Shown: positions 1-14,507 of the stretch, in pieces | Position numbering within the stretch: position 1 is the stretch's first letter | Layout: the number at the start of each line of letters is the position of its first letter | DNA from: Quadrisphaera sp. DSM 44207 | Lineage (GTDB): Bacteria; Actinomycetota; Actinomycetes; Actinomycetales; Quadrisphaeraceae | DNA length: 64,000 nucleotides | Direction: 5' to 3' | Assembly (NCBI RefSeq): GCF_900101335.1 | Contig: NZ_FNKA01000004.1 | Location: 1 to 64,000 of the forward strand | Notes under the pieces: model-generated | The model's input: the letters and a program-made list of their open reading frames with translations, nothing else | What the model was told of the DNA's origin: nothing | The model's database searches: none | Translations under genes and position numbers: made by a program

Positions 1-132
1 GGACTTCAGCTCGGTGTACTCCGGGCCCATCCGCGCCCGCGTCTTGATCCACTCCGGCTTGCGCTCGATCGGAACGGCCGCGTTGCGCGCCTCGACGCGC
101 AACAACCGCCGACCATCAGGAACCAGGGTCAC
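1..132 (-). CDS. lipA: lipoyl synthase LipA, N-terminal part (cut by window edge)
   Basis: Only the first 44 codons lie in the window. The reading begins at a GTG and carries [18 protein letters not shown] and MGPEYTELK, which match the start of actinobacterial LipA just before its first cysteine cluster. LipA is a radical-SAM enzyme that inserts two sulfurs into protein-bound octanoyl groups to make lipoyl groups. The start overlaps the stop of the E2 gene by four bases (GTGA), so it closes the 2-oxoacid dehydrogenase operon. Its placement suggests the operon brings its own lipoylation capacity for the small lipoyl protein at 1665-1907. Whether this is the only lipA in the genome cannot be seen. 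Confidence 0.85.
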
Positions 133-797
133 CGACCGGACTCCAGCCGGTCGCGCAGCGCGGTGAGGAAGGCGGCTCCCGTGGCGCCGTCGATCGCCCG
201 GTGGTCGCAGGTGAGGGTCATCTCCGCGACGGGTCGCCAGGCGGGGTCGCCGTCGTTCCACACCTGCCGCTGGCGGGTGCTGCCCACGGCGAGGATGGCC
301 ACCTGCGGCACGTTGAGGATGGCGTCGAACCGGTCGATCCCCAGCATCCCGAGGTTGGAGACGGTGAAGGTCCCCCCGGTGACGTCGGCCATGGCGAGCG
401 CGCCGGTGCGGGCGCGCTCGACCACCTCCCGCCGCTTCGCGGCGATCCCGGCCAGGTCGAGCGCCTCGACGCCGTGGACCACCGGGACCACCAGGCCCGC
501 GGGCGTGGCCACCGCGATGCCGAGGTTGGCCTGCTCGAAGGTGGTCACGGCCTCGTCGGCGTAGTGGGCGTTCAGCGCCGGGTGCTCCCGGAGCGCGCCG
601 GCGCACGCGGCGAGCAGGGCGTCCGTGACCGTCGCGCCGGGCGCCCGGCCCTTGACCGCCACGGGCGTGGTCATGTCGACCTCGACCGCGAGGTGGAAGA
701 CGGGGGCCTCCCACGCGGCGACCATGCGCCGGGCCGCGGTGCGCCGGATCCCCTTCAGGGGGGTCGTGGTGCCGGCGGGCGTCGCGGTGGTGGTCAT
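129..797 (-). CDS. 2-oxoacid dehydrogenase E2 acyltransferase, catalytic core only
   Basis: The 222-residue product is a stand-alone catalytic domain of a dihydrolipoamide acyltransferase. It has the [12 protein letters not shown] start typical of the core, [18 protein letters not shown] in the middle and DHRAIDG near the end, with catalytic His199 and Asp203. Classical E2 proteins carry one to three lipoyl domains and a peripheral subunit-binding domain before this core; none is present. The lipoyl domain is encoded separately at 1665-1907. The ATG overlaps the aldolase stop by four bases and the stop overlaps lipA. The acyl group transferred is unknown; acetyl is the simplest guess. Loss of the binding domain raises the question of how E1 and E3 are held. 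Confidence 0.85.
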
Positions 798-1651
798 GCG
801 GCCACCGCCGACCCGGCGCGCCCGGCGCACCCGTACAGGCGCATCTTGGCGACCGTCGCCTCGATCATGCGCGAGCGGCCCTCGGCCATCGCGTCCTCCA
901 GCTGCCGGTCGCCCTGGGCCCACACGGCCTCGATCCCGGAGCGGAAGGCGTGGCGGAGGTCGGTGTCGGCGTTGAACTTGCGCACCCCGGCGTCGGTGGC
1001 GGCGCGGATCTCGTCGTCGGGGACGCCGGAGGCCCCGTGCAGCACCAGCGGGACGCCGGTGACCGCCTTGATCTCCTTGATCCGCGCGATGTCGAGCGGC
1101 TGCGGCTCGGACAGGGGCACGCCGTGGACGATGCCGACCGAGACGGCCAGCCAGTCGACGCCGGTCTCGGCGACGAACCGCTCCGCCTCGGCGACGTCCG
1201 TGTAGTACGACGCCCAGTCCACCTCCTGGTCGGCGTCGGGGATCTTCCCGAGCTCCGCCTCCACGGGGATGCCGAAGTCGTGCGCGACCTCGACGATGCG
1301 CTTCGTGGTGCGGATGTTCTCCTCGAAGGGCAGGTGCGCGCCGTCGTACATGATCGACCCGAAGCCCAGCCGGATGGCCTCGAAGACCTCGTCCCACGGG
1401 CCGTGGTCGAGGTGGATGACCATCTCGGCGTCGGACTCCTCCGCCACCCGCCGGGTCAGCTCGTACGCCCTGCGCAGGCCCATGTGGGGCACGATGGCGC
1501 GCCCGACCTGCAGGAACACGGGCGCCCCGGCCTGCTCGGCGGCTCGCACGAGGGCCTGGGTGGTCTCCTCGTTGTGCATGTTGAAGCCGCCGACGGCGTA
1601 GCCGCCGGCCTTCGCCTGCTCGACGACCCTCCTCGGGTCGGCCCAGACCAC
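794..1651 (-). CDS. class II ketose-bisphosphate aldolase family protein
   Basis: The product is 285 residues, normal for the FbaA/GatY/KbaY family. Seen motifs are HLDHG at 80-84 (first zinc histidine and catalytic aspartate region), [22 protein letters not shown] and NADTDLR, which binds the dihydroxyacetone-phosphate moiety in characterised members. These zinc enzymes reversibly cleave a ketose (bis)phosphate into dihydroxyacetone phosphate and an aldehyde. A GTG start at 1651 is chosen because it follows a G-rich ribosome site and gives the normal length. The gene lies 13 bases after the lipoyl gene and overlaps the E2 gene, so it sits inside a dehydrogenase operon, which is unusual. The substrate is not predictable from sequence. 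Confidence 0.85.
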
Positions 1652-1664
1652 GGTCCCGCCCCCG

Positions 1665-1907
1665 TCAGTCGGTCTCGATGACGGCGACGACGGTGCGGAC
1701 CTCGACGGTCTCGCCCTCGGGCACGACGATCTCCGAGAGCGTGCCGCTGGCCGGGGCCTCGAGGGTCTCCTCGACCTTCTCGGCCTCGACCTCCGCCAGG
1801 GGCTCGTCCTCGGAGACGGTGTCACCCACGGACTTCAGCCAGCTGCTGATGGTGCCCTCGCTCATGCCCATCCCCCACTGCGGGAGCAGGACCTCGACCC
1901 TCGCCAT
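1665..1907 (-). CDS. free-standing lipoyl-domain carrier protein
   Basis: This 80-residue protein is one lipoyl domain and nothing else. It begins with the PQWGMGMSEGTISSWL signature and has the lysine turn EAEKVEETLEAP, where Lys44 is the expected lipoylation site (the canonical turn is usually a DKA or AKA triplet). It should act as the swinging arm between the E1 at 1954-4001 and the E2 core at 129-797. In ordinary complexes this domain is fused to E2. The operon position, between E1 beta and the aldolase, supports a partnership with these subunits. A biotin carrier is less likely because the turn lacks the MKM motif. Confidence 0.88.
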   Translation of the reverse strand: MARVEVLLPQWGMGMSEGTISSWLKSVGDTVSEDEPLAEVEAEKVEETLEAPASGTLSEIVVPEGETVEVRTVVAVIETD

Positions 1908-1953
1908 GTTCGCCCCATCTCTGTCGTCGGTGTGCTGCGGCCGTGCGGGTGGT

Positions 1954-3018
1954 TCAGCGCGGCGCGCTGGTGGAGAGCTCGTCGTCCGCGCGCTCCGGGG
2001 ACGCCGGCAGCTGCACCCGCTCCCCCAGCACGCGGCGGACCGCGTCGGCGATGGAGGTGCGGCTCGGGTAGAGCTGCTTCTCCAGCGCCGGGCTGAAGGG
2101 GATCTGCGTGTCCGGGGTCGTCACGCGCACGATCGGCGCGCGCAGGGACTCGAACGCCTCCTCCGCGACGATCGCGGAGATCTCCGCGGCCGCGCCGCAG
2201 GTGCGGTGGGCGGGGTCGGCGACGACCAGGTGACCGGTGCGCTGGACCGACCGCACGACCGCCTCGGCGTCCAGGGGGACGAGGGTGCGGGGGTCGACGA
2301 CCTCCACGGAGATCCCCTGCTCGGCCAGGGCGTCGGCGGCCTTGACCGCCTCCGGCACGGCGCTGGAGACGGCCACGACCGTGATGTCGGACCCCTGGCG
2401 GACGGTGCGCGCCTGTCCGAGGGGGATGCGGTACTCCTCCTCGGACACCTCCTCCTTGGTGCCCCAGAGCAGGCACGCCTCGAAGGTCAGCACCGGGTCG
2501 TCCGTGTCGATCGCCGTGCGCAGCAGCCCCTTGGCGTCGCTGGGGCACGCCGGAGCGATGATCTTCAGGCCCGGCACGTTCATGAACATCGGGTAGGGCC
2601 GGTCGGAGTGGTGGGCGCCGGTGTTCAGGCCGTAGAACATCGCGGAGCGGAAGACCACGGGGATCGAGGCCTGGCCCCCGAACATGTACCGGTTCTTGGC
2701 GGCCTGGTTCACGAACTGGTCCATGGCCATGTACAGGAAGCTGGAGTAGGACAGGTCCACGATCGGGCGCAGGCCGGTCATGGCCGCGCCGATCGCCACG
2801 CCGACGATCCCCTCCTCGGAGATGGGGGTGTTGCGGATGCGGTCGCGCCCGTACATCTGCAGGAAGTCGCCCTTCTCGGCACGGGACTTCCCGCTCCCTC
2901 CGGTGGTGCCGTAGACGTTGGCCTCGACGTCCTCCCCGATGATGACCACGCGCTCGTCGGCCTCCATGGCCTCGCGCTGGGCGGCGCCGATGGCTCCGAG
3001 GTAGCTCATGACGGTCAT
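1954..3018 (-). CDS. 2-oxoacid (or acetoin-type) dehydrogenase E1 subunit beta
   Basis: The 354-residue product matches the transketolase-like beta subunit of two-subunit E1 enzymes: the thiamine-binding and interface stretch GEDVEANVYGTT, the SEEGIVGVAIGAAMTGLRP region, and a C-terminal transketolase domain with EVVDPRTLVPLD. It pairs with E1 alpha just upstream; the alpha stop and this ATG share one base (TGATG). Together they would decarboxylate a 2-oxoacid, or cleave a diketone or acetoin, using thiamine diphosphate and pass the acyl group to a lipoyl arm. The family is clear; which substrate is used is not. The short C-terminal tail after the conserved domain shows no special motif. Confidence 0.88.
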   Translation of the reverse strand: MTVMSYLGAIGAAQREAMEADERVVIIGEDVEANVYGTTGGSGKSRAEKGDFLQMYGRDRIRNTPISEEGIVGVAIGAAMTGLRPIVDLSYSSFLYMAMDQFVNQAAKNRYMFGGQASIPVVFRSAMFYGLNTGAHHSDRPYPMFMNVPGLKIIAPACPSDAKGLLRTAIDTDDPVLTFEACLLWGTKEEVSEEEYRIPLGQARTVRQGSDITVVAVSSAVPEAVKAADALAEQGISVEVVDPRTLVPLDAEAVVRSVQRTGHLVVADPAHRTCGAAAEISAIVAEEAFESLRAPIVRVTTPDTQIPFSPALEKQLYPSRTSIADAVRRVLGERVQLPASPERADDELSTSAPR

Positions 3019-4001
3019 CAGCGGGCTCCGATCGGCTCGGTGTAGAGGTCCTGGAAGGCGATCGACGGGTCCGGGAACGGGCTCTCCTCGGTGAAGCGCA
3101 CGGCCTCGTCGACCTCGGCGAGCACCTCGGCCTCGAGGGCGTCCATCTGCTCGGCGGTGGCGACGCCGTCGTCGACGAGCCGCTGCCGGAGGATCATGAG
3201 GGGGTCGCGCTCGACCCACTGCGCCTTCTCGTCCTTGTCCCGGTAGTCGACGCCGATCCGCAGGCCCTCGGAGTGCTCGTTGAAGCGGTAGGTCACGACC
3301 TCGACCAGGCTCGGGCCCTCCCCGCGGCGGGCGCGGTCGACGGCGGCCTTCACCGCCTCGTAGACCTCCAGGACGTCCTGGCCGTCCTCGACCCGCACCC
3401 CCGGCATGCCGAAGCCCGCCGCGCGCTCGGCGATGACGCCCGAGGTGACCGTGTGCGCCGGCGTGGACAGGGCGTACTGGTTGTTCTCGCACAGGAAGAT
3501 CACGGGCAGGTCCCACGCGCCCGCCATGTTCATCGACTCGTACAGGCAGCCCTGGTTGGCGGCGCCGTCCCCGAAGAACGCCAGGGCCACCCGCCCGTTG
3601 CCGAGCACCTTGCTGGAGAACGCCGCGCCGGTGGCGATCGGGATCGAGGACCCCACGATGCCGGACTCGCCGAGGCTGCCGACCTTGAAGTCAGCCAGGT
3701 GCAGGGAGCCGCCCTTGCCGCCGCAGACACCGCCGGCCTTGCCCACCAGCTCGGCCATCAGCGGGCCCAGGGGGGAGCCCTTGCCGATCGGGTGGCCGTG
3801 GCTGCGGTGGTTGCCGCTCATGTAGTCCTGGTCGCCGAGGGCCATCGTGGCCCCGACCACCTGCGCCTCCTGGCCGATGCTCGTGTGCACCGTGCCGGGG
3901 ATCGCTCCGCGCTTGACCATCTTCGAGGCCCGCTCGTCGAACCGGCGGATCCGCAGCATGCGCCGCTGCATCTCCACCAGGGTCTCGGGTGAGAGCTCCA
4001 T
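3018..4001 (-). CDS. 2-oxoacid (or acetoin-type) dehydrogenase E1 subunit alpha
   Basis: The 327-residue product has the thiamine diphosphate motif GDGAANQG followed by ENNQYALST, and GNHRSHGHPIGKG and GGKGGSLHLAD upstream, as in PdhA, BkdA1 and AcoA proteins. I chose the ATG at 4001 because a strong site, GAGGAGGAG, lies just before it; ATGs at 4016 and 4022 have no such site. It is the first gene of an operon running to lipA. The leader holds a palindrome shared with the araM leader. The look of the GSLHLAD and GIVGSSIP stretches is closer to acetoin-dehydrogenase-type than to classical pyruvate dehydrogenase subunits, but this is a weak hint. Confidence 0.88.
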   Translation of the reverse strand: MELSPETLVEMQRRMLRIRRFDERASKMVKRGAIPGTVHTSIGQEAQVVGATMALGDQDYMSGNHRSHGHPIGKGSPLGPLMAELVGKAGGVCGGKGGSLHLADFKVGSLGESGIVGSSIPIATGAAFSSKVLGNGRVALAFFGDGAANQGCLYESMNMAGAWDLPVIFLCENNQYALSTPAHTVTSGVIAERAAGFGMPGVRVEDGQDVLEVYEAVKAAVDRARRGEGPSLVEVVTYRFNEHSEGLRIGVDYRDKDEKAQWVERDPLMILRQRLVDDGVATAEQMDALEAEVLAEVDEAVRFTEESPFPDPSIAFQDLYTEPIGAR

Positions 4002-4022
4002 CGCTCCTCCTCGCATATTCAT

Positions 4023-4044
4023 TCGATGTCAGCATCACGATGCT
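4023..4044. promoter_or_regulatory. candidate operator in the E1 operon leader
   Basis: The 96-base gap between the kinase stop and the E1 alpha start is locally AT-richer than its surroundings. It contains TCGATG-TC-AGCATC at 4023-4036 and the overlapping perfect repeat AGCATC-AC-GATGCT at 4031-4044. A TCGATG/AGCATC palindrome with four-base spacing recurs at 17726-17741 before araM and sorC2. I infer a SorC-family operator shared by both operons; a promoter for the E1 operon probably lies here too. Confidence 0.45.
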
Positions 4045-4097
4045 AGTGGACCACGCAGGGAGCCACAAGGCCCGCGAGGGGCGGGCGGGCGGGAGGG

Positions 4098-5618
4098 CTA
4101 GGGCGCGGCGGCGGCCCCCACCGGGGTGCGCCCGCGCACGGACGCGACGGCGTCCTGCCACCCCGCGTACAGCTCCTCGCGCCGGTCGGCGGGCATGGAG
4201 GGCTCGAAGACGCGCTCGGCGCGCCAGCCGCCCTCGACGTCGTCCGGCACCCTCCACACCCCGGCGCCGGCGCCGGCCAGGTAGGCCACGCCCAGGGCCG
4301 TGCGCTCCAGCTGGTCGGGCCGGACGACGGGGATCCCGCTGATGTCGGCCTGGAACTGGCAGAGCAGGTCGTTGCGCGTGGCCCCGCCGTCGACCTTCAG
4401 CTCGGGCACGGGCACGCCGCCCCGCACGAGCGCGTCGATGTTGTCGCGGGTCTGGTAGGCCATCGCCTCCAGCCCGGCGCGCACGACGTGCTCGGCGCCG
4501 CTCTCCAGGGTCAGGCCCACGATGCTGGCCCGCGCCTGCCGGTCCCAGTGCGGTGCGCACAGGCCGGCGAAGGCCGGCACCAGGTACACCCCGCCGCTGT
4601 CCCCCGCGCGGCGCGCGAGGGCCTCGACGTCGTCCCCCGGGCCGAAGACGCCCAGCCGGTCCCGGAGCCACTGCAGGGTCTGCCCGCAGGAGAAGACGAC
4701 GCCCTCGGCCTCGAAGTCGGTGCGCCCCTGCACCGTCCAGGCCACGCTCGAGGTCAGCCCCGGCAGGTCGACCGGCGCCTGGCCGCAGTTGGCGGTCAGC
4801 ACCCCGGCGGTGCCGTAGGTGTTCTTCACGGAGCCGACGGTGAAGCACGCCTGGCCGAACATCCCCGCCTGCTGGTCGGCCAGCACGGCGGTGACCGGCA
4901 CGGGCGGCCCTCCGGGGCCGCCGAGGACCGCGGGGTCGACCTCCCCGAAGCGGCTGTCCGAGGCGACGGCCGGCGCCAGGAGCTCCAGCGGCACGTCGCA
5001 GGCCGCGCACAGCTCCTCGTCCCAGGCCAGCTGCCCGAGGTTGAACAGCGCCGTCCGCGAGGCCTCGCTGTGGTCGGTCAGGTGGGACCGGCCGCCGGTG
5101 AGGTTCCACAGCAGCCACGTGTCGACCGTCCCCGCCGCGAGCTCCCCGCGCAGCGCCCGCTCCCGGGCGCCGGGCACGTTCTCCACCAGCCACGCCAGCT
5201 TGCCCGCGCTGAAGTAGGAGTCGTTGTTGACCCCGGTGCGCTCGCGCACGACCGGGTCCAGCCCCGCGGCGCTCCAGCGGCGGACGAGGGGGTCGGTCTG
5301 CTTCGACATCCACATCACCGCGTTGTGGACGGGCTCGCCGGTGCGCCGGTCCCAGACCATCGCCGACTCGCGGTGGGTCGTGATGCCGACCGCGGCGATG
5401 TCGGCCCCGCTCGCGCCGACCTGGGCCATCGCCTGGCGCATGCTGTCGTGCTGGGCGCGCCAGAGGGCGACCGGGTCGAACTCGACCCACCCGGGCCGCG
5501 GGAAGATCGGCACCAGCGGGTTGCGGGCCTCGCTGACGATCCGGCCCTCGGGGTCCACCAGCACCGTGCGGGCGCTGGTGGACCCCTCGTCCAGGGCCAT
5601 CACGTACCGGGGGCTCAT
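4098..5618 (-). CDS. glycerol-kinase-like FGGY carbohydrate kinase
   Basis: The 506-residue FGGY kinase aligns over its full length with glycerol kinase. The glycerol-contacting residues of the E. coli enzyme are all present, at nearly the same numbers: Arg83-Glu84 (THRES), Trp103 (MWMSK), Tyr135 (DSYFSAGK) and Asp248-Gln249 (ADQQAG). Several flanking motifs differ from standard GlpK: DEGSTSART instead of DQGTTS, MWMSKQTD instead of WQDRRT, and LCAPHWDRQARA instead of GAPYWDPYARG. The likely reaction is ATP-dependent phosphorylation of glycerol or a related polyol. It overlaps the GlpD-like gene by four bases (ATGA), so kinase and dehydrogenase are translationally coupled, as in ery-type operons. 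The glycerol assignment is plausible but not secure. Confidence 0.82.
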   Translation of the reverse strand: MSPRYVMALDEGSTSARTVLVDPEGRIVSEARNPLVPIFPRPGWVEFDPVALWRAQHDSMRQAMAQVGASGADIAAVGITTHRESAMVWDRRTGEPVHNAVMWMSKQTDPLVRRWSAAGLDPVVRERTGVNNDSYFSAGKLAWLVENVPGARERALRGELAAGTVDTWLLWNLTGGRSHLTDHSEASRTALFNLGQLAWDEELCAACDVPLELLAPAVASDSRFGEVDPAVLGGPGGPPVPVTAVLADQQAGMFGQACFTVGSVKNTYGTAGVLTANCGQAPVDLPGLTSSVAWTVQGRTDFEAEGVVFSCGQTLQWLRDRLGVFGPGDDVEALARRAGDSGGVYLVPAFAGLCAPHWDRQARASIVGLTLESGAEHVVRAGLEAMAYQTRDNIDALVRGGVPVPELKVDGGATRNDLLCQFQADISGIPVVRPDQLERTALGVAYLAGAGAGVWRVPDDVEGGWRAERVFEPSMPADRREELYAGWQDAVASVRGRTPVGAAAAP

Positions 5619-7288
5619 CGCCGTGCGCCCGCAGGGGCCGGGTCCGCCGCCCGACCCGGCACGGCCAGCCGCTCCAGCCACTGCCGGTAGCCGGCCACCT
5701 CGGCGCGCTGGCGCTCCTCGTCCCACCCGAGCCGGTCACCGAGGACCGCCGCCGCCCGGTCGACGGTCTCCAGGCCGTGCCCGGGCTGGAACGCCAGCAG
5801 GACGCGCCGCGCCATCACGTCGGCGAGGCTGACCGCCAGCTCGCGCCGGACGGCGAAGAGCAGCTCCGCGCCGATCGCCCCGGACTCCGGGTCGAAGACC
5901 TCCAGCAGCTCGGGGTCGCCCGCCGCGCAGGCCACGACGTCCGCGGCCCGGGCCCCGTACAGGCCGAGCAGGCGGTCGGCGGTGCGCTCGGACAGCCCGG
6001 CCCGGGACAGCAGCGCGGCGCGCACGGCGCCTCGGTCCCCGACCGCGCCCGGGAAGGGGATCTTCTGCGTCACGCAGGGCGGGGCCTTGCGCCCGAGCCT
6101 GGTGAAGACGTCGTCGACCGCGTCCTCGGCGAGCTGGCGGTAGGTCGACAGCTTCCCGCCCACCACCGTGACCAGGCCCTGCAGCTGCGGGCCGTGGTCG
6201 TGCAGGACGTGGGTGCGGGTGACCTTCGACTCCGGCACGCCGGGGGCGTAGGGCAGGGGCCGCACTCCGGAGTAGGTGTAGAGGACGTCGTCCTGGGTCA
6301 GGTTCGCCCCGGGCACCAGGCTGTTGACCTCGTTGAGCATGTAGGCCATCTCGTCCGCGTCGCAGCGGGCCTGCACCGGGTCCTCCTCGAACCGGATGTC
6401 CGTGGTCCCGATGAGGTAGCGCTGCATCCACGGGATGACGAGCACCAGGCGCCCGTCGCGGCGGGACTCGTAGTAGACGACGTCCGCGGGCGCCCCGGGG
6501 AAGGGGTCCACGACGAGGTGGCTGCCCTTGGTGCCCCCGTTCAGCCGCGGCTGCTCCGGGGCGCCGCGGCGGAAGACCCGGTCGATCCAGGGGCCCGCGA
6601 CGTTGTAGACGACGGGCGCCCGGACCTCCCCGACCTCTCCGCTGCGGGTGTCGACGAAGCGGACGCCCTGGACCCTCCCGCCCTCGACGAGGACCTCCTC
6701 GACCCGCGCCCGGGTGCGGATGACCGCCCCGTCCCCGACGGCGGCCACCGCCAGCTCGACGCACAGCCGCTCGGCGGCCTCCACCTGGCCGTCGGTGAAC
6801 AGCGCCGCCCCGCTGAGCCCGTCGCGGTTGATCCCGGTGAACCGCTCCACGGTCTCCCGCAGCGAGAGGATGCGGTGGCTCGGGGACTTCTTGTCGAAGG
6901 ACAGGACGTCGTAGAGCACCATCCCGAGCCGGATCATCCAGCCGGGGCGCTTGTTGTGCCGGTAGAACGGCATCATCAGCCGCACCGGCTCCACCAGGTG
7001 CGGCGCCACGCGGAAGAGCAGCTCGCGCTCGCGCAGGGACTCGCGCACCAGGCCGACCTCGTAGTGCTCCAGGTAGCGCAGGCCGCCGTGGACCAGCCGC
7101 CCGGACCACGCCGAGACCCCGCTGCACAGGTCGTCCTGCTCCAGCAGCGCCACGCGCAGGCCCCGCAGGGCCGCGTCGCGGGCGATGCCCAGCCCGTTGA
7201 TGCCCGCGCCGACGACGACGACGTCGAAGGGCGCGGACAGCTCGTCGACGGCGGGAGGGCGCGCTCCCGCGCCCGGTGCGGCGCTCAC
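5615..7288 (-). CDS. GlpD-like FAD-dependent (polyol or glycerol) phosphate dehydrogenase
   Basis: The 557-residue product has an N-terminal FAD-binding Rossmann motif (VVVGAGINGLGIARDAALRG), the GlpD hallmark SGRLVHGGLRYLEHYEVGLV and the C-terminal DAO_C domain. It should oxidise sn-glycerol-3-phosphate, or another polyol phosphate, at the membrane and pass electrons to quinone. In erythritol operons the homologous EryB oxidises a four-carbon polyol phosphate, so the true substrate depends on the partner kinase at 4098-5618, which it overlaps. It also overlaps the PepD-like gene upstream (GTGA). The GTG start follows from this overlap. No transmembrane segment is evident; this family is peripheral. 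Confidence 0.85.
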   Translation of the reverse strand: MSAAPGAGARPPAVDELSAPFDVVVVGAGINGLGIARDAALRGLRVALLEQDDLCSGVSAWSGRLVHGGLRYLEHYEVGLVRESLRERELLFRVAPHLVEPVRLMMPFYRHNKRPGWMIRLGMVLYDVLSFDKKSPSHRILSLRETVERFTGINRDGLSGAALFTDGQVEAAERLCVELAVAAVGDGAVIRTRARVEEVLVEGGRVQGVRFVDTRSGEVGEVRAPVVYNVAGPWIDRVFRRGAPEQPRLNGGTKGSHLVVDPFPGAPADVVYYESRRDGRLVLVIPWMQRYLIGTTDIRFEEDPVQARCDADEMAYMLNEVNSLVPGANLTQDDVLYTYSGVRPLPYAPGVPESKVTRTHVLHDHGPQLQGLVTVVGGKLSTYRQLAEDAVDDVFTRLGRKAPPCVTQKIPFPGAVGDRGAVRAALLSRAGLSERTADRLLGLYGARAADVVACAAGDPELLEVFDPESGAIGAELLFAVRRELAVSLADVMARRVLLAFQPGHGLETVDRAAAVLGDRLGWDEERQRAEVAGYRQWLERLAVPGRAADPAPAGARR

Positions 7289-8748
7289 CGGCCCAGCCGC
7301 CCGACGACCTCGCGCACCAGCGGCCACACCTTCGCGACCGACCGGTGGCTGACGGTCTCCTTGGGGTTGTGCAGGTCGTGCAGCTCCGTGCCGATGGAGA
7401 TGGTGTCCAGGCCCAGGGTGTTGCTGAAGATCCCCAGCTCGAGGCTGCACTGGGACACCTCCACCTCCGGCTCCTCGCCGATGACGTCGCGGTAGGCCTC
7501 GGAGGCGACCTTCAGCAGCGGCGAGTCCGGCTCGTAGGCGAACTCCGGCGCGTCCAGGCCGTACTGCTCGACGCCCACCCCGCCGCCGGCGAGGGCGGCC
7601 AGCGCGCGCACCCGGTCGAAGACCTCGTGCTTGCGCGAGGTCAGCGCCGAGGTGATCGTCGACATCAGCCGGGCGCCGTCGTCCGTGGTGCGGATCGTGC
7701 CGAGGTTGTTCGACGTCTCCACGCGCCCGGGCACCGCCAGGTTCCAGCTGATCACCCCGTTGGGGACCAGGGAGACCAGCCGGGCGAGGCGGGCGCCGGC
7801 CTCCGCCGAGAACACCCGCTCCGGCTGCTCGGCGGGCTCCAGCTCCAGGCGGATGCCGGGGTCGGCCCGCTCGTACTCCCGCTCCAGCTCGCCCTGCACG
7901 CGCGCGACCACCTCCTCCACGCCCGCGACGTCCTCGGGGCGCAGGGCGAGGACGACCTGGGCGTCGGCGGGGATGGCGTTGTTCTGGGCGCCGCCGGTGG
8001 GGTCGGCGATCCGCACGTCGAGCTCGTCGAGGGCCCGCGTCAGCACGCGCGCCAGCACCAGCAGGGCGTTCGCCCGCTCCAGGTGGATGTCGAACTCGCA
8101 GTGCCCGCCGGCGAGGCCCCGGACCTTCAGCAGCCGGGCCTCGGGATGGGTGGCGGGCGCGTCCTCCCACTGCGCGGGGACGTCGATGGTCATCGTGACG
8201 TCGCCGCTGCAGCCGGCGAGGATCTCCTTGTCGGTGATCCAGTTGAAGTCGATCATCCGCTTGCCGGTCAGCTGCGAGGTGTCGAAGCGCCCGGCGCCGT
8301 ACTTGCCCTTCTCCTCCATCGCCGTCAGGACGGCCTCCAGCGGGGGGTGCGGGATGTCCTTCGAGTCCAGCAGGGCGAGGATGTAGGAGACGCCGATGCC
8401 GTTGTCGGCGCCGAGGGAGGTGCCGTCGGCGGTGATGTAGTCGCCCTCGACGACGAGCCTGATGGGGTCGTTCTCGAAGTCGATGCTGACCCCCTCCTCC
8501 TTCTCGCACACCATGTCCAGGTGCCCGTGGAGGATCAGGGGCGGGGCGTCCTCCAGGCCGCCTTGTCCCGGCTTCCTCACGAGCACGCAGTGCATGTCGT
8601 CCTTCACGGCCTCCAGGCCGCGCTCGCGGGCGAAGCGCACCACCCACTCGGCCACGCGCTCCTCGTTGCCCGAGCCGCGGGGGATGCCGGCGAGGGTCTC
8701 GAAGAACGAGAGGACCTCTCGCGGCTGCAGGGACTCCAGGACGGTCAT
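7285..8748 (-). CDS. PepD-like aminoacyl-histidine dipeptidase (M20C), altered active site
   Basis: The 487-residue protein has the length and order of PepD: HGHLDMVCE (His76, Asp78), SLGADNGIG (Asp115), MEEKG (Glu145-Glu146) and LHNPKE (His460). Two features are odd. The residue that usually supplies an aspartate zinc ligand (the LINLD stretch) reads MIDFN, giving Asn169. The usual GGHSG loop reads GGHCEFD. A single catalytic zinc or a different activity is therefore possible. The gene is coupled by four-base overlaps to the SorC regulator before it and the GlpD-like gene after it, a strange place for a peptidase. It may hydrolyse an amide in the compound handled by this locus; that is speculation. 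Confidence 0.75.
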   Translation of the reverse strand: MTVLESLQPREVLSFFETLAGIPRGSGNEERVAEWVVRFARERGLEAVKDDMHCVLVRKPGQGGLEDAPPLILHGHLDMVCEKEEGVSIDFENDPIRLVVEGDYITADGTSLGADNGIGVSYILALLDSKDIPHPPLEAVLTAMEEKGKYGAGRFDTSQLTGKRMIDFNWITDKEILAGCSGDVTMTIDVPAQWEDAPATHPEARLLKVRGLAGGHCEFDIHLERANALLVLARVLTRALDELDVRIADPTGGAQNNAIPADAQVVLALRPEDVAGVEEVVARVQGELEREYERADPGIRLELEPAEQPERVFSAEAGARLARLVSLVPNGVISWNLAVPGRVETSNNLGTIRTTDDGARLMSTITSALTSRKHEVFDRVRALAALAGGGVGVEQYGLDAPEFAYEPDSPLLKVASEAYRDVIGEEPEVEVSQCSLELGIFSNTLGLDTISIGTELHDLHNPKETVSHRSVAKVWPLVREVVGRLGR

Positions 8749-9830
8749 CGGTGTGCTCCTTCTCGAGTCGTCAGGTGGTCAGCGGGTGGTCGTCGGGAGG
8801 TGGCGGTCAGGGGGTGGCCGGCGCGCGCGGCGGGCGCCCGCGGCGGCGGGCCGTCGCGGCGCGGCCCGGCCAGCAGGTGCCGGGCGGAGGCGGCGTCGGT
8901 GACGAGGACGTCGACCCAGCCGCCGGCGAGGGCGGCGGCCAGCGGCTCGTGCTTGCTGGCACCGCCCGCGACCGCGACCCGGCGCCGGGCCCCGCGCAGC
9001 TGCTCGAGGGTGGCGCCGACGACGAGGTCGTCCAGCGGCGTCGGCACGGCGCGGCCGCGGGCGTCGACCAGGCGCAGGTCCAGCTGGCCCACGGCGCCCC
9101 GCTCGCGGGCCGCGGCGAGCTGGTCCGCGCTGAAGAAGCCCTCGCCCGCCAGGCCGCTGTGGAAGTCCACCGGCCCGATCCCGACGAAGGCCACGTCGAG
9201 GCGGTCCAGCAGGTCCAGCGCGCGGCGCACGTGCGGGTCGCGCAGGCGCGCCCGGCGCAGGGCGGGCGTGGCCACGACGCCCGGGGTGCGCAGGAAGACG
9301 GGCTCGGCGCCCAGCGCCTCCGCCAGGCGCTGCGTGGCGCGGGCGGCCTCGTGCTGCAGCAGCGGCGGGCCCAGGTCGCCGAGCATCTCCACCACGTGCG
9401 CGGCGCCGGTGCGCCGCACGCCGTCCAGGGAGGCCGCCATCGCCCGCAGCGTGGAGCTCCAGGGCGTGAAGCCCACCACCGCCCGCTCCAGGGGGACGTC
9501 GGCGAGCAGCCGCGCGGCCGCCGGGCCGAGGGCGGTGGCGACCGCCCCGTCGCCACCGGGGACCTCCACGACGTGGACCTCGCTGAGGCCGTGCAGCTGC
9601 TCCAGCCTCTCCTCCAGGTCCGGGTGCAGCCCCTCGGGCACCGCGACGACGGTGCGCACGATGCCGTGGTCCTCGGCCTGGCGCAGCAGGCGCGAGACGC
9701 GCGCCTGGGACGTGGCCAGGCGCTCGGCGATGTCCCGCTGCCGCACGCCGTCGACGTGGTAGAGCCGGGCCGCGACGGTCATCGCGCGCAGCAGCTCCTG
9801 GCTGGGCCGGCTGGCCGGCGCCTCGCTCAT
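8745..9830 (-). CDS. SorC-family sugar-binding transcriptional regulator (paralog 1)
   Basis: The 361-residue protein has an N-terminal helix-turn-helix (VRQRDIAERLATSQARVSRL, about residues 29-48) and a SorC-type sugar-phosphate-binding domain with VVEMLGDLGPP, RTPGVV, VAFVGIG and TPLDDLVVGA. Such regulators sense a phosphorylated intermediate and control sugar or polyol operons; EryD of the erythritol operon is one. It is closely similar over its whole length to the regulator at 17859-18818. The last 40 or so residues are a Pro/Arg-rich tail absent from the paralog. A GAGGAGGA site lies before the ATG, and the stop overlaps the PepD-like gene. Confidence 0.88.
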   Translation of the reverse strand: MSEAPASRPSQELLRAMTVAARLYHVDGVRQRDIAERLATSQARVSRLLRQAEDHGIVRTVVAVPEGLHPDLEERLEQLHGLSEVHVVEVPGGDGAVATALGPAAARLLADVPLERAVVGFTPWSSTLRAMAASLDGVRRTGAAHVVEMLGDLGPPLLQHEAARATQRLAEALGAEPVFLRTPGVVATPALRRARLRDPHVRRALDLLDRLDVAFVGIGPVDFHSGLAGEGFFSADQLAAARERGAVGQLDLRLVDARGRAVPTPLDDLVVGATLEQLRGARRRVAVAGGASKHEPLAAALAGGWVDVLVTDAASARHLLAGPRRDGPPPRAPAARAGHPLTATSRRPPADHLTTREGAHR

Positions 9831-9876
9831 GACGGTCCTCCTCGACGCGCCCGGGTGGCCCGTGCTGGCCCGACGC

Positions 9877-10887
9877 TCAGGCGCGGGTCCTCGCCCCGCG
9901 GCGGTCGGTGACGACCGCCGCGATGATGGCGACGCCGATGACGACCGGCTGCAGGTTCGGCGACACGTTGAGCAGCGCCATCCCGTTGTTGAGGACGCCG
10001 ATGATCAGCAGGCCGATGAAGGTGCCGAGCATGCTGCCCGACCCGCCGGCGAGGCTCGCGCCGCCGATGACGACGACCGCGATGACGTTGAGCAGGTCCG
10101 CCGTGCCGGCCGTCGGCTGCGCGGAGTCGAGCCGGGACCCGACCACGACGCCGGCGACGGCGGCCAGGACGCCGGCGGTGACGTAGACGCGGATCGTCAG
10201 GGCCCGGACGCCGATCCCCGACAGGCGGGCGACCTCGGGGTTGCCCCCGATCGCGTACAGCGCCCGGCCGCTCGGGCGGTAGCGCAGCCAGAAGCCGGCG
10301 GCGAGGTAGATGGCGACGAGGATGACGCCCTCGATCGGGAACCCGAGCACCTCGGCGCTCGTCAGCGCGAGGTACCACGACGGGAAGCCGGTGATGGGGT
10401 TGCCGTCGGTGATGAACAGCGCCAGGCCGGCGGCGGCCGACATCGTCGCCAGCGTCGCCACGAACGCCTGGATCCGGCCGTGGGTGACGAGCAGCCCGTT
10501 GATCAGGCCGATGAGCGCGCCGACGCCCAGGCCGGCGAGCACCGCCACCCCGAAGGGGATGCCGTGGACCTCGTGCATCCAGGCGCTGGTCATCAGGCTC
10601 AGCGCCAGGGTCGACCCGACCGACAGGTCGATGCCCCCGATGATGATCACGAGGGCGGCGCCGACGGCCATGATGCCCACGTCGGAGACCTGGCTGACGA
10701 TGTTGGTCAGGTTCCTCACCGTGAGGAAGTACGGCGACAGGAAGGACATCACCACGACGATCACCACCAGGCCCACCAGGGGGCCGGGCAGGGAGCGCAG
10801 GGCGCCCAGCGCCCGCTGCGCCGGCGACGGCGCGGTGGTCGTGGTCCCCGTCCCGGTGCCGCGGGGAGCGGTCTGCTGCATCGTCAT
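9877..10887 (-). CDS. ribose-type ABC transporter permease
   Basis: The 336-residue membrane protein has eight to ten hydrophobic segments and RbsC-family motifs: GGIDLSVGSTLALS, GVGALIGLINGLLVTHG, and GGASLAGGSGSMLGTFIGLL near the end. It forms the channel of the importer with the ATPase 15 bases upstream and the lipoprotein at 12498-13517. The Thr- and Ala-rich first 25 residues are cytoplasmic. Only one permease gene is present, so a homodimer is expected, as in ribose systems. Confidence 0.9.
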   Translation of the reverse strand: MTMQQTAPRGTGTGTTTTAPSPAQRALGALRSLPGPLVGLVVIVVVMSFLSPYFLTVRNLTNIVSQVSDVGIMAVGAALVIIIGGIDLSVGSTLALSLMTSAWMHEVHGIPFGVAVLAGLGVGALIGLINGLLVTHGRIQAFVATLATMSAAAGLALFITDGNPITGFPSWYLALTSAEVLGFPIEGVILVAIYLAAGFWLRYRPSGRALYAIGGNPEVARLSGIGVRALTIRVYVTAGVLAAVAGVVVGSRLDSAQPTAGTADLLNVIAVVVIGGASLAGGSGSMLGTFIGLLIIGVLNNGMALLNVSPNLQPVVIGVAIIAAVVTDRRGARTRA

Positions 10888-10902
10888 GGGGTCCCCAGCT
10901 GC

Positions 10903-12471
10903 TCAGGTGCGGACGGCCGGCGCAGGGCCGGCGGACGGCTCGGAGCCGCCGGCGGCGGCGAGCGCGGAGCGGCTGACGGCGAGCGCCATCACCGCCTCGG
11001 GGGTGGCCTCGGCGCGGTCGAGGACCCCCTGCTGGCGCCCCGCGGACATCACGAGGACGCGGTGGCAGAGGCCCAGGACCTCCTCCAGCTCGGAGGAGAC
11101 CACGATCACGGCGACGCCCTCGGCGGCGAGGGAGCGCAGGATCTCGTAGATCGCCTCCTTCGCCCCGACGTCGACGCCGCGGGTGGGCTCGTCGATGATG
11201 AAGACCCGCGGCCGCTCGACGAGCCACTTGGCGAGCAGGACCTTCTGCTGGTTGCCCCCGGACATGCTGGCCACCGGCAGGTGCATCCGGCCGCGGATGT
11301 CCAGCTCGGCGCTCTTGCGCTCGCCGACGGCGCGCACGGTCCGGCTGGTCAGGAGGCCCCGCACGGCCAGGGCCTTCTCCCACGGCAGGGTGATGTTCTC
11401 CGCCGCCGAGCGCGGGAGGTTCAGGCCCTGGCCCTTGCGGTCCTCGGGGACCATGACGATCCCGGAGGCGATGGCGGCCCGCGGGTTCCCCGGGGGCACC
11501 CGCCGGCCGCCGACGAGCACCTCGCCGCCGTCGAGGGCGTCCACGCCGGCGAGGGCGCGCACCACCTCGGTGCGCCCGGCGCCCACCAGGCCGGCGAAGC
11601 CGAGCACCTCCCCCGCGGAGACGGTGAAGTCGACGTCCGCGAAGGCCCCGCGGCGCCGCAGCCCCCGCGCCTGGAGCACGACCTCCTCGCGCCGGGGCCG
11701 GGGCGCCACGTGCTGGTAGCTGAACTCGCGCCCGACCATGGCGTTGACCAGCTCCTGCTTGGGCACGTCCCCGGTCTCCCAGGAGGCCACGCGCCGGCCG
11801 TCGCGCAGGCACACGACGCGGTCCGCCACCTCGCGCACCTCGTCGAGGCGGTGGGAGATGTAGACGACGCCCGACCCGGCGTCCCGCAGGGCGCGGATCT
11901 GCTCGATGACGCGCTCGGTCTCCGACTCCCCGAGCGCCGCGGAGGGCTCGTCGAAGACGACGTAGCGCGGCGCGCGGCTGATCGCCTTCGCGATCTCGAT
12001 CTCCTGCTGCGCGGCGATCGACAGGCCCCGCACCGGCCGGCCGGGGTCGATCCCGACCCCGAGCCGGGCGAGCACCTCCGCCGCCTCGCGGTCGATCCGC
12101 CGCCGGTCCACGCGCCCGCCGCGCACCGGCAGGCGCCCGAGGAAGATGTTCTCCGCCACCGTGAGCTCCGGCAGCAGCCGGATCTCCTGGTGGATGAGGG
12201 CCACCCCCTGGTCGAGCGCGTCCGCGGGGGAGGACGGCGCGTACGGGCGCCCGTCGAGCGTCATCGTCCCGGAGTCCGGCTGCACGACGCCGGTGATGAT
12301 CGAGCTCAGCGTCGACTTGCCGGCGCCGTTCTCCCCGATCAGCCCCACGACCGCCGCCGGGGGGACGTCGAAGCCCACCGACCTCAGCACCGGGACCCCG
12401 GAGTAGCTCTTCCCCACCTGCGAGCACACCAGCCCGCTGGGCTCCTGCCCCACCGCCGCCACCCTCGACAC
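10903..12471 (-). CDS. ribose-type ABC transporter ATP-binding protein (two nucleotide-binding domains)
   Basis: The 522-residue protein has two ABC domains in RbsA order. The first has a Walker A GENGAGKST near residue 45 and Walker B YVVFDEPSAAL; its signature reads LSIAAQQ. The second has a degenerate P-loop (GLVGAGRTE), a good signature MSGGNQQK and Walker B VFIIDEPTRGVD, the normal pattern for this family. I start it at the GTG at 12471, which follows GGGGAGGGG. It energises uptake with the permease downstream and the binding protein 26 bases upstream. The family suggests a pentose, polyol or similar small carbohydrate. Confidence 0.9.
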   Translation of the reverse strand: MSRVAAVGQEPSGLVCSQVGKSYSGVPVLRSVGFDVPPAAVVGLIGENGAGKSTLSSIITGVVQPDSGTMTLDGRPYAPSSPADALDQGVALIHQEIRLLPELTVAENIFLGRLPVRGGRVDRRRIDREAAEVLARLGVGIDPGRPVRGLSIAAQQEIEIAKAISRAPRYVVFDEPSAALGESETERVIEQIRALRDAGSGVVYISHRLDEVREVADRVVCLRDGRRVASWETGDVPKQELVNAMVGREFSYQHVAPRPRREEVVLQARGLRRRGAFADVDFTVSAGEVLGFAGLVGAGRTEVVRALAGVDALDGGEVLVGGRRVPPGNPRAAIASGIVMVPEDRKGQGLNLPRSAAENITLPWEKALAVRGLLTSRTVRAVGERKSAELDIRGRMHLPVASMSGGNQQKVLLAKWLVERPRVFIIDEPTRGVDVGAKEAIYEILRSLAAEGVAVIVVSSELEEVLGLCHRVLVMSAGRQQGVLDRAEATPEAVMALAVSRSALAAAGGSEPSAGPAPAVRT

Positions 12472-12497
12472 CGCCCCTCCCCTCGCGCCGACCGGGA

Positions 12498-13517
12498 TCA
12501 GGAGGAGGCGGAACCGGCGTCGGGGCCGTAGAACTCGGTGACGTCCTCGCCGCCGACGGTCTCCGCGTCGATGCGCACGGTGTCCTGGTACTGCTCGGCG
12601 GGCAGCTCGGCGCCGTCCCGGACGTGCTCGATCGCCTGCTGGACCGCGAGCTGGCCCATCATGTAGGGCTGCTGGGCCATGGTGGCCTGGGTCAGCCCCT
12701 GCTCCACGGCCTCGAACATCGTCGGGAAGCCGTCGATGCCGACGAAGAGCATCCCCTCGTGGCGCCCGGCCTCCTGGGCCGCCTTGGCCGCGCCCATGGC
12801 CATCGCGTCGCTCTCGCCGAAGACGGCCTTCAGGTCCGGGTTCGCCGTCAGGATGTTCTGGGTCGCCTCGAACGCCTCGGCCTCGTCCCAGTTGGCCGTC
12901 TCCTCGGCCACGACCCGGATGCCCGGCGCGGCCTCGATCGCCTCCTGGCAGCCCTGCGTGCGCTGGATCTCGGCGGTCGAGCCCAGGACGCCGTGCAGGA
13001 TCGCGATCTCGCCCTCCCCGCCCATCTGCTCGAACAGCCAGGTGCACAGGTCGCGCGCGGCCTTGACGCTGTCGGTGGCGATGTAGGTCGCCAGCTCGCC
13101 CTCGCCGCTCTCCGGGCGCTGGTCCACCGCGAGGACCGGCACGTCCGCCTCGTTGGCGGCGCGGACGCCGGCGGCGGCGGCGGTCGAGTCCTGCGAGGTG
13201 AAGATGAGCGCGTCGATCTGCTGGGTGAGCAGGTCGTCGACCTGGCCCACCTGGGCGTCGGAGTCGTTGTTCGCCGAGGTCACGAGGAGCTCGACGCCGG
13301 CCTCCTCCGCGGCGGCCTCCATGCCCTGGACGGCGGCCACGTAGAACAGGGACTTCTGGTCGGCCACGGACACCCCGAGCCGGACGTCCTCCCCGCCGCC
13401 GCCGCCCGCGGCGGCGGAGCCGCCGTCGCCGGTGCCGCAGCCCGTGGCACCGAGGGCCAGCAGGGCCGCGGCCGCCGAGCCGAGCAGGGCCTCGTGGGAG
13501 CGTCGTCCTCGCAGCAT
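12498..13517 (-). CDS. ribose-type ABC transporter substrate-binding lipoprotein
   Basis: The 339-residue protein starts with Arg-rich MLRGRRSHEA, a hydrophobic segment and a lipobox ending ATGC, so it should be a lipid-anchored extracellular binding protein. The mature part is a periplasmic-binding-protein-1 fold with LGVSVADQ, DALIFTSQDS and FVGIDGFPTM. The ATG at 13517 follows GGAGGAGA; an ATG at 13532 has no such site. It is the first gene of the transporter operon, and the 120-base gap upstream contains a short palindrome. The ligand is not identifiable from sequence. Confidence 0.88.
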   Translation of the reverse strand: MLRGRRSHEALLGSAAAALLALGATGCGTGDGGSAAAGGGGGEDVRLGVSVADQKSLFYVAAVQGMEAAAEEAGVELLVTSANNDSDAQVGQVDDLLTQQIDALIFTSQDSTAAAAGVRAANEADVPVLAVDQRPESGEGELATYIATDSVKAARDLCTWLFEQMGGEGEIAILHGVLGSTAEIQRTQGCQEAIEAAPGIRVVAEETANWDEAEAFEATQNILTANPDLKAVFGESDAMAMGAAKAAQEAGRHEGMLFVGIDGFPTMFEAVEQGLTQATMAQQPYMMGQLAVQQAIEHVRDGAELPAEQYQDTVRIDAETVGGEDVTEFYGPDAGSASS

Positions 13518-13587
13518 CGCGGTCTCCTCCACGCCGTCGTGGGTCGTCCTCGCCGGGCGTCGTCGGTGACGCCGCCGAGTAGGTATT

Positions 13588-13637: not shown

Positions 13638-14507
13638 TCAAGACCCGCCGATCACGGACCGGCGCCGTCCTGCGGCGCCGGCGGGCAGCAGCTCGTCGAT
13701 GCGCTCGAGGACGTACCGCGGGCGGCGGTGCGGGGGCGCCTGCTCGACCGCGGCGCGCGTGCTCTCCCCGGTGAGCACGAGCGCGGAGTCCAGGCCGGCG
13801 TCGACGGCCATGGCGATGTCGGTGGACAGCCGGTCCCCGACCATGACGCAGTCCTGCGGCGCCAGCCCGAGGACGTCGAGGGCCGTGCTCAGCATCAGGG
13901 GGCTGGGCTTGCCGACGTTGACCTCGCAGCGCACGCCGGTGCACGCCTCGATGGCGGCCACGACGGCCGCGGCGTCCGGCTCGCCGCGCCCGCCCGGCAT
14001 CGGGCAGTAGGCGTCGGGGTTCGTCGTCACCAGGCGGGCCCGCCGGTGCATCCACAGCGCGTCGAACGCGATCTGCAGCTTGCGGTACCCGAACGCGCGG
14101 TCGTAGCTGGCGACGACGACGTCGATCTCCTCGGGCCGCTCCGTCAGCCGCAGGCCCGCGGCCTCGACGGCGCGGCGCAGCGGCTCCTCGCCGATGACGA
14201 AGACCCCCGCGCCCGGCGCGTTGCGGGCCAGCCACGCCGCCATCGTCACGGTGGTGTTGACGATGTGGCTGGTGGGCGTCGGCAGCCCCAGGCGCTGCAG
14301 CTTCTCCGCGTACATCGCCGGGTCCCGGGTGGGGTTGTTCGACAGGAACAGGGTCGCCCGGCCCGTCTCCCGCAGCCCGGTGACCAGCTCGTGCGCGCCC
14401 GGCAGCAGCTGGTCCCCGAGGTAGATGGTGCCGTCGAGGTCGAACAGGTAGCCGTCGTACGGGCGCGGGCGGACGCCGGCGCCGTCGAGCGGCTGCGCAG
14501 CGCTCAC
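13638..14507 (-). CDS. HAD-superfamily (NagD/PGP-like, class IIA) phosphatase
   Basis: The 289-residue protein has all HAD motifs: FDLDGTIYLGD (nucleophile and acid/base aspartates), FLSNNPTRD, then GKPSP and VMVGDRLSTDIAMA near the end. The C2-type cap between motifs places it with NagD, AraL and phosphoglycolate-type phosphatases, which hydrolyse small sugar phosphates. It overlaps the FGGY kinase by four bases (GTGA). Beside an AraM-like dehydrogenase, dephosphorylation of glycerol-1-phosphate or a related polyol phosphate is a reasonable inference; the araL-araM pairing in Bacillus is a precedent for the neighbourhood. Confidence 0.85.
   Translation of the reverse strand: MSAAQPLDGAGVRPRPYDGYLFDLDGTIYLGDQLLPGAHELVTGLRETGRATLFLSNNPTRDPAMYAEKLQRLGLPTPTSHIVNTTVTMAAWLARNAPGAGVFVIGEEPLRRAVEAAGLRLTERPEEIDVVVASYDRAFGYRKLQIAFDALWMHRRARLVTTNPDAYCPMPGGRGEPDAAAVVAAIEACTGVRCEVNVGKPSPLMLSTALDVLGLAPQDCVMVGDRLSTDIAMAVDAGLDSALVLTGESTRAAVEQAPPHRRPRYVLERIDELLPAGAAGRRRSVIGGS

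Follow-up and report, generated by a model that had tools for sequence, protein, structure and literature searches.

A conserved split between a free lipoyl protein and a bare E2 core, probably parts of a dissociated acyl-transferring dehydrogenase in a sugar- or polyol-type operon

Introduction

Complexes of the 2-oxoacid dehydrogenase type are usually explained by swinging lipoyl arms that are tethered to a large core. The first 64 kb of contig NZ_FNKA01000004.1 from Quadrisphaera sp. DSM 44207 (contig C4, 243,559 bases, of genome G000, 3.2 Mb in 4 contigs), analysed as a whole and called the window throughout, begin with a cluster in which the two subunits of an E1 enzyme are encoded together with a lipoyl protein and an E2 acyltransferase core that occupy separate genes. 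Is this split of E2 genuine, and how might acyl groups then pass from one part to the other? A sequence-only reading of the locus had proposed that a mobile lipoyl carrier, comparable to glycine cleavage H protein, shuttles acyl groups and that an aldolase encoded between the two parts may be physically associated with them. We find that the split is conserved in many genera and propose that the locus probably encodes a dissociated acyl-transferring dehydrogenase of the 2-oxoacid or acetoin dehydrogenase type within a sugar or polyol catabolic operon.

Results

A separate lipoyl protein and E2 core are encoded beside E1

The genes at the start of the window are:

1 to 132, minus strand: first 44 codons of lipA (lipoyl synthase), cut by the contig end, GTG start at 132; second lipA copy of the genome (we take this 44-residue piece to belong to the lipA family)
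129 to 797, minus strand: bare E2 acyltransferase catalytic domain, 222 residues (Pfam PF00198, 2-oxoacid_dh, 225.4 bits, residues 10-220)
794 to 1651, minus strand: class II ketose-bisphosphate-type aldolase, likely GTG start at 1651 (PF01116, F_bP_aldolase, 282.1 bits)
1665 to 1907, minus strand: stand-alone lipoyl carrier protein, 80 residues, Lys44, ATG start (PF00364, Biotin_lipoyl, 72.0 bits)
1954 to 3018, minus strand: E1 beta subunit, an enzyme of the thiamine diphosphate (ThDP) type with Transket_pyr and Transketolase_C domains (PRK09212, 304.9 bits, under the cut-off of 321)
3018 to 4022, minus strand: E1 alpha subunit (Pfam E1_dh, 273.9 bits; TIGR03182, 325.8 bits, under the cut-off of 393.85)

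The domain limits agree with those first read from the sequence, and profile matches in Pfam and NCBIfam back all of the E1, lipoyl, aldolase and E2 assignments to the level of the family. The 80-residue protein is covered by Biotin_lipoyl over residues 5-77 (cut-off 22.1 bits), 2-oxoacid_dh is the sole Pfam family at an E-value of 0.001 in the 222-residue core, which thus comes without a lipoyl or subunit-binding domain, and the aldolase gene does sit between the two. The aldolase also matches the NCBIfam cbbA subfamily model (224.9 bits, cut-off 215.6; in the profile scans its gene end was taken as 1663), and the E1 alpha subunit contains a GDG...NN motif, presumably the ThDP motif. The ATG of the E2 gene overlaps the stop of the aldolase gene, and the lipA GTG (132) overlaps the E2 stop (129), so that these genes look translationally coupled.

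The split is conserved

When 198 genomes of the order were searched, close relatives were found in three, all of the same family and with 72-75% E2 identity; across the phylum, matches at 1e-42 came from 21 of 396 genomes, and identity above 50% was seen for the window alone. Using an E1 alpha alignment and two peptide patterns, we scanned 84,980 species genomes and obtained at least 555 relatives, of which the best 80 were used. Among them, 22 loci (L105-L126, hereafter module loci) encode E1 alpha subunits 74-85% identical to that of the window; they carry labels such as Nocardioidaceae, Arthrobacter, Geodermatophilus, Microbacteriaceae genera, Streptosporangium and Nonomuraea, and also Hyphomicrobiaceae, Bradyrhizobiaceae, Rhodobacter and Alphaproteobacteria. 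Among the matches listed, the closest named E1 alpha relatives of the window are mostly Actinomycetota. L126 ends before its lipoyl gene, leaving 21 covered loci, and L111 lies on the same 81,686-base contig as L060 of genome G073, at identical coordinates, and hence belongs to the same-family set.

In none of the 21 covered module loci do lipoyl and E2 parts share an open reading frame (ORF), and the frame stops 0-3 residues past the lipoyl match; in L058, L060/L111, L108 and L124 it also extends upstream of the match, so that only the downstream boundary is firm there. A separate E2 core is present in 16 of the 21 and none was found in the other five. The same split occurs in the same-family genomes G101 and G143. 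As a control, loci with more distant E1 subunits (L091-L104 and L127-L183) were inspected, and lipoyl and E2 domains share one ORF in 39 of them (10 and 29, respectively); L142 is not of the one-ORF kind, and the remaining loci have no lipoyl or no E2 match. Nine further loci with E2 identities of 37-44% (L061-L069) stand outside this test and all counts. A tree of 48 cores unites the 19 module cores in a single clade (100/99), whose neighbours are the fused E2s of L091-L093 (92/83).

This conserved arrangement indicates that the split arose neither by chance nor by a frameshift. A frameshift, a sequencing error or a pseudogene of a normal E2 has practically no chance of explaining the locus and was discarded, since the two parts flank an intact aldolase gene and the split recurs in all covered loci from many genera. 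The E2 split is therefore genuine, and LipA- and LplA-like genes lie beside it.

The carrier and the core resemble complete functional domains

Lys44 of the window lipoyl protein, aligned with three relatives, lies in the sequence VEAEKVEE at the position of the lipoyl hairpin, and the motif, which we take to indicate lipoyl rather than biotin attachment, differs from the AMKM of the two biotin-type domains of the genome (L006, L007). Among NCBIfam models, the protein best matches that of acetoin dehydrogenase E2, over its lipoyl part (76.7 bits; the cut-off for the whole protein is 307). The H protein of glycine cleavage is a free, single-domain lipoyl shuttle, and the comparison with it holds for the free state of the carrier but not for its family, as the GCV_H score of 20.1 bits falls under the cut-off of 22.2.

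The core contains the catalytic motif DHRAIDG, and His199, Asp203 and Gly204 are invariant in 22 aligned sequences. An AlphaFold2 model obtained from 22 aligned cores (predicted local distance difference test, pLDDT, 91.1; predicted template-modelling score, pTM, 0.87) ends its last helix at residue 220, and Foldseek searches with this model retrieved solved E2 cores (best E-value 7.3e-25, 34% identity, TM-score 0.82 on the query, root-mean-square deviation 8.1), so the protein is modelled as a complete catalytic domain. In the alignment, most fused E2s have C-terminal hydrophobic residues after the last helix, and these are missing in most module cores, the exceptions being L116 and L123, which end in APL. 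The lack of hydrophobic last residues weakly suggests that the window core is a trimer.

Might the two proteins simply reassemble into an E2 that binds E1 tightly and non-covalently, as in an ordinary complex with a nicked chain? In the 16 loci having both genes these are co-oriented and close, and the E1 subunits of same-family genomes extend at their C-termini past the region that aligns with the window proteins, by residues which could dock. However, a Pfam scan detected no subunit-binding domain in the lipoyl, E2, E1 or aldolase proteins of the window, the lipoyl and core pieces of the window retain almost no linker, and up to three genes intervene between them. We regard such a reassembled E2 as quite unlikely. 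A mobile lipoyl carrier is the more natural reading of the sequences, given the conserved split and the adjacent LipA- and LplA-like genes.

Module loci without a core, and other E2 genes

The five module loci for which no core was found in the available stretch (L112, L113, L119, L121 and L124) retain E1, the free lipoyl protein, the aldolase and an LplA-like gene; four are labelled as alphaproteobacterial groups and L112 only as 'bacterium'. These loci bring up another explanation, namely that the carrier works with E1 but delivers its acyl group either to a housekeeping E2 or to some other acceptor, the core being an accessory or a relic. A dedicated E2 near L113 or L121 was considered and rejected, as judged from translations: the E2 on the same contig is SucB-like and lies beside a 2-oxoglutarate-dehydrogenase-like sequence, which makes it a housekeeping enzyme, as a different acceptor for the carrier would permit. 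Translations of the stretch L226 place succinyl-CoA-synthetase-like genes (CoA, coenzyme A) near that E2 as well. Against this explanation, 16 of 21 loci keep the core, and all 18 module cores aligned have His199 and Asp203, whereas a relic would decay. On balance another acceptor is unlikely. The genome of L112 (G583) has a second operon, with a fused E2 (L225).

The sequence-only reading had named a full-length E2 elsewhere in the genome as a possible objection. There are indeed three other E2-type genes in the window genome, but none is evidently the partner of this E1. A multidomain E2 at C4:210718 adjoins its own E1 beta and E1 alpha, OdhA at C1:414671 has E1 in the same frame, and for a SucB-like E2 with two lipoyl domains at C2:9470 no E1 match was found within the 20 kb compared. 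It is possible that a full-length E2 from elsewhere serves this E1 in trans. We nevertheless favor a transfer to the bare core encoded in the module.

The aldolase varies in position and occurrence

Aldolase and E2 core occur together in 12 of the 21 covered module loci, the aldolase is found without a core in five, and four (L109, L114, L120, L122) have no aldolase match. Between the lipoyl and core genes lies either the aldolase alone (six loci) or a GlpD-GlpK-aldolase set (six loci). One could imagine a single physical channel made up of aldolase, lipoyl protein and core, in which an aldehyde or acyl unit is handed on directly, as their adjacency in the window and the loci with the aldolase alone in between might invite; the intervening GlpD-GlpK pair and the split loci that lack the aldolase make this very improbable. 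With such variable position and occasional absence the aldolase is ruled out as an obligatory physical partner, and the earlier suggestion of a physical association is not borne out. The aldolase looks like a pathway partner rather than a structural one, with a link that is metabolic at most.

The 17 aldolase-bearing loci (within L105-L125) contain an AraM-like gene in 16 cases, an XylB-like gene (at least 48% identity) in 16 and a HAD gene in ten, and L124 has neither an AraM-like nor an XylB-like gene. The four aldolase-free split loci instead carry a GlpK-like kinase (33-36%), a short-chain dehydrogenase/reductase and ATP-binding cassette (ABC) transporter genes. Before the kinase of L109, successive ORFs at 152-1989 weakly match E1 alpha (28%) and E1 beta (30%), and this pair is perhaps a split transketolase of the same pathway.

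Lipoylation genes and an assembly break at lipA

An LplA-like gene lies near 18 of the 22 module loci but near none of the 39 loci with fused E2, as determined with one query from the window genome and flanks of unequal length, a search that could miss distant ligases. No match was found in L106, L109, L111 and L126, and the contigs of L111 and L126 end early. The LplA-like residues of EYC-G--S and K--G--QR are each kept in at least 18 of 19 sequences, and from their sequences the proteins may be either ligases or octanoyltransferases.

The lipA gene overlaps the E2 gene in the window, follows E2 in L059 and is present in L105 and L108. Contigs C4 and C2 have identical first 95 bases, and on C2 the lipA start follows a lipB-like sequence (by eye); contigs C1 and C3 likewise share their first 95 bases and both open with the end of a lipA gene (TIGR00510, partial matches). 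These shared contig starts with lipA pieces indicate that the genome carries two near-identical lipA copies, which seem to break the assembly at four contig ends. Over 44 residues, the window piece and the lipA-like start at C2:1-132 share 91% identity, and the similarity of housekeeping and operon lipA suggests gene conversion between both copies.

Beyond the lipA tail, a glutamine-synthetase-like gene lies further on in C1 (by eye), and C3 contains an LplA-like gene (PF21948, 36.8 bits, cut-off 27) followed by a serine-hydrolase-like gene and ABC sugar transporter genes (by eye). The binding protein encoded on C3 has relatives of 59-61% identity in L106, L107, L118 and L125. Because of these relatives, and because LipA and LplA-like genes sit together in L105 and L108, we infer that the window continues into C3 across the assembly gap. 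The contigs of three same-family relatives also stop at or just past the E2 core.

The surrounding operon is of a sugar or polyol type

The genes that precede E1 in the direction of transcription are:

4098 to 5618, minus strand: GlpK-like FGGY kinase (PRK00047, 558.1 bits, subfamily cut-off 498; TIGR01311, 537.1 bits, under the equivalog cut-off of 590.35)
5615 to 7291, minus strand: GlpD-like dehydrogenase using flavin adenine dinucleotide, start near 7291 by eye, 7225 in the profile scans (PRK12266, 362.7 bits, cut-off 360)
7285 to 8748, minus strand: M20 dipeptidase, PepD-like (TIGR01893, 429 bits, cut-off 343.75)
8745 to 9830, minus strand: SorC/DeoR-type sugar-binding regulator (PF04198, 163.9 bits)
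9877 to 10887, minus strand: ribose-type ABC permease (75% identity to the L106 permease, itself outside the family-library scan; type assigned from the neighboring ATPase and binding-protein genes)
10903 to 12471, minus strand: ribose-type ABC ATPase, approximate start (70% identity to the L106 ATPase, which matches AraG, XylG and RbsA models, all under their cut-offs)
12498 to 13532, minus strand: probable sugar-binding lipoprotein of the ABC transporter, judged from a signal/lipobox-like start and its place between ATPase and HAD genes
13638 to 14507, minus strand: HAD-IIA phosphatase, approximate start (58% identity to the L116 HAD protein, which scores 121.1 bits with HAD-IIA, cut-off 100.15, and under the cut-off with PGP_euk)
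14504 to 16075, minus strand: XylB-like FGGY kinase (53% identity to the L116 kinase, which scores 304.8 bits with the XylB model, under its cut-off of 380.25)
16065 to 17555, minus strand: protein like AraM or glycerol-1-phosphate dehydrogenase (59% identity to the L106 protein, which scores 75.8 bits with Pfam Fe-ADH_2 and 118.9 bits with PRK00843, under its cut-off of 413; the name AraM comes from Bacillus subtilis)

The ABC genes, two FGGY kinases, the GlpD-, AraM- and HAD-like proteins and the SorC regulator suggest that the operon is probably catabolic, with sugar or polyol catabolism as its role. The M20 dipeptidase gene inside this sugar-type operon also recurs in L105, L106, L108, L110, L117 and L125.

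A ketol substrate?

Acetoin dehydrogenase splits acetoin and offers a chemical model for a more specific idea, which we put forward tentatively and consider doubtful: the system might be a sugar-cleaving ketol dehydrogenase, in which E1 would split a ketose or 1-deoxyketose (or its phosphate) and the free lipoyl protein would carry off the acyl group. If this were true, a sugar would be converted in one step into acyl-CoA and a shorter aldose (phosphate), and a single pool of lipoyl groups, made possible by the free carrier, would supply a system that is loosely organised and induced by sugar.

In its favor, related operons have a homologue of DRL/DXR-II (1-deoxyxylulose-5-phosphate reductoisomerase type) next to E1. 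Such a homologue was found in nine loci (L094, L097, L099, L100, L104, L113, L121, L162, L182; 107 sequences searched). The L104 and L113 homologues align with the Brucella enzyme (structures 3upl/3upy, which we take to be DXR-II) at E-values of 3e-103 and 2e-150. Gly121, Thr229, His250 and Arg320, positions tied to DXR-II function in PMC3847144, are kept in both, and Val351 is kept in L113, where L104 has Ser (by eye). According to the same text, four tested members of the related families DLO1 and DLO2 were all without DXR-II activity (PMC3847144), which means that similarity does not settle the function of the L104- and L113-type homologues. The second operon of G583 (L225, 7130-12716) is a compact set of DRL, E1 alpha, E1 beta, fused E2 and a sugar-kinase-like gene, for which methylerythritol or deoxyxylulose catabolism is possible. 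AceE is the one-chain E1 of pyruvate dehydrogenase. Deoxyxylulose phosphate is reported to be made by E. coli aceE mutants (PMC3424233), which shows only that E1-type enzymes are capable of such chemistry.

No DRL/DXR-type match occurs in the window operon, which thus lends no direct support to the deoxyxylulose idea. PF21135 was found in 12 of 19 module-bearing genomes, and the match in the window genome (C3:314895) is 32-36% identical to two DRL queries. After L142 (64%), the closest non-module E1 alpha subunits (at most 56%) are, among the matches listed, mostly from Chloroflexota. In the three gene-called loci of this Chloroflexota type (L127, L133, L146) E2 is fused and no sugar-catabolic genes were recognised by eye, which favors an ordinary 2-oxoacid role and speaks against the ketol idea.

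Further split pairs

In L184 (Bacillus sp. B15-48, 9941-12920), E1 alpha (46% identical to that of the window), E1 beta, an 80-residue lipoyl protein and a 233-residue core are encoded in a row, with no LplA-like match and no aldolase. L235 (Nocardioides immobilis, 3847-10810) encodes E1 alpha (40%), E1 beta, a lipoyl protein (45%) and a core (42%), followed by an AMP-ligase-like gene, LipA and a dihydrolipoyl-dehydrogenase-like gene (names from translations), and so has the appearance of a fully dispersed complex; two of 396 genomes have relatives of its core at an E-value of 1e-38. In L236 of the same species (3-12792, covering L142), E1 alpha (33%), E1 beta (37%), lipoyl protein (71%) and core (41%) again stand in a row, and a LipA gene (named from its translation) lies about 6 kb away on the other strand. 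Some 9 kb downstream of the L236 core there is a module-like E1 alpha (70%; 64% in L142) with no lipoyl gene beside it, and the L236 carrier may serve two E1 enzymes.

L184 and L235 look independent of the module, L236 not clearly so. In the tree, which is without L235, the cores of L142 and L184 stand elsewhere on long branches with unsure placement. As L184 and L235 appear independent, their sequences suggest that the split may have arisen more than once.

Discussion

The conserved separation of arm, core and E1 is probably best explained by a dissociated acyl-transferring dehydrogenase that serves the surrounding pathway. In the proposed mechanism, E1 alpha/beta with ThDP would make an acyl group from its substrate and load it onto the lipoyl group at Lys44 of the free carrier, and the carrier would diffuse, instead of swinging on a tether, to the bare E2 core, which would transfer the acyl group to CoA. 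The carrier would then be reoxidised by a dihydrolipoyl dehydrogenase encoded at another site in the genome, and its lipoylation would fall to the neighboring-encoded LipA and LplA-like proteins. The aldolase, the kinases and the GlpD-, AraM- and HAD-type enzymes could provide upstream or downstream steps of the same pathway.

Several observations weigh against this proposal. The genomes with core-less loci hold 16 E2-domain matches, whose frames have at least 342 residues except for one of 120 at a contig edge; because nearly all are this long, that lineage may lack the core or replace it in trans, or the assemblies may be incomplete. A search of 25 stretches for a dihydrolipoyl dehydrogenase motif gave no match, although the pattern was equally silent around housekeeping E2 genes. 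L106 and L109 continue past the core yet have no LplA-like match. Every NCBIfam E1 model scores under its curated cut-off, which leaves the substrate class unfixed, and the fused-E2 relatives from the E1 alpha scan could equally be ordinary 2-oxoacid dehydrogenases.

A natural and conserved system with separate arm, core and E1, whose operon includes lipoylation-type genes, would allow a direct test of how important tethering is, and it yields small lipoyl and E2 parts for enzymology that can be expressed separately. The module also marks an uncharacterised sugar- or polyol-type pathway across Actinomycetota and assemblies labelled Alphaproteobacteria. In the open-licence PubMed Central literature, judged by titles and the starts of abstracts, no description of a split pair of lipoyl protein and E2 core or of this operon was found.

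Among known systems, the canonical E2 of 2-oxoacid dehydrogenases shares the HxxxDG catalytic domain with the window E2 but has lipoyl and subunit-binding domains that the latter does not contain. With regard to glycine cleavage, no P or T protein is found among the assigned operon genes, and the carrier lies outside the GcvH Pfam family as described above. The acetoin dehydrogenase E2 model of NCBIfam is one chain of 372 positions with the lipoyl domain first, whereas the window version is split and placed in a sugar- or polyol-type operon; the likeness of the window system to acetoin dehydrogenase is one of lipoyl-domain similarity only. The acoABCSL operon of Pelobacter carbinolicus also combines E1 and E2, there for a catabolic ketol, with a dedicated lipoyl synthase gene, acoS (PMC3543383).

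A free lipoyl carrier is likewise known from Hdr-like sulfur oxidation, where LbpA is reported to be mostly encoded beside a dedicated LplA-like ligase gene, comparable to the LplA-like gene of the module, and its loci mostly also encode radical SAM maturation proteins (PMC6067878). LbpA is GcvH-like and serves Hdr-like proteins (PMC6067878), whereas the partner of the window carrier would be the E1/E2 pair. No Hdr-like gene is present among the assigned operon genes; the gene at 12498-13532 stands outside the scan, and genes past the contig end lie on other contigs. For actinobacterial OdhA/AceF, PMC10415282 reports an acyltransferase without its own lipoyl domain that is served in trans, as proposed for the window core, and an E2p that is trimeric and not a 24- or 60-mer. 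In OdhA the E2 core is fused to E1 and the lipoyl domain is borrowed from E2p (PMC10415282), whereas in the window the core stands alone and the lipoyl protein has a gene of its own.

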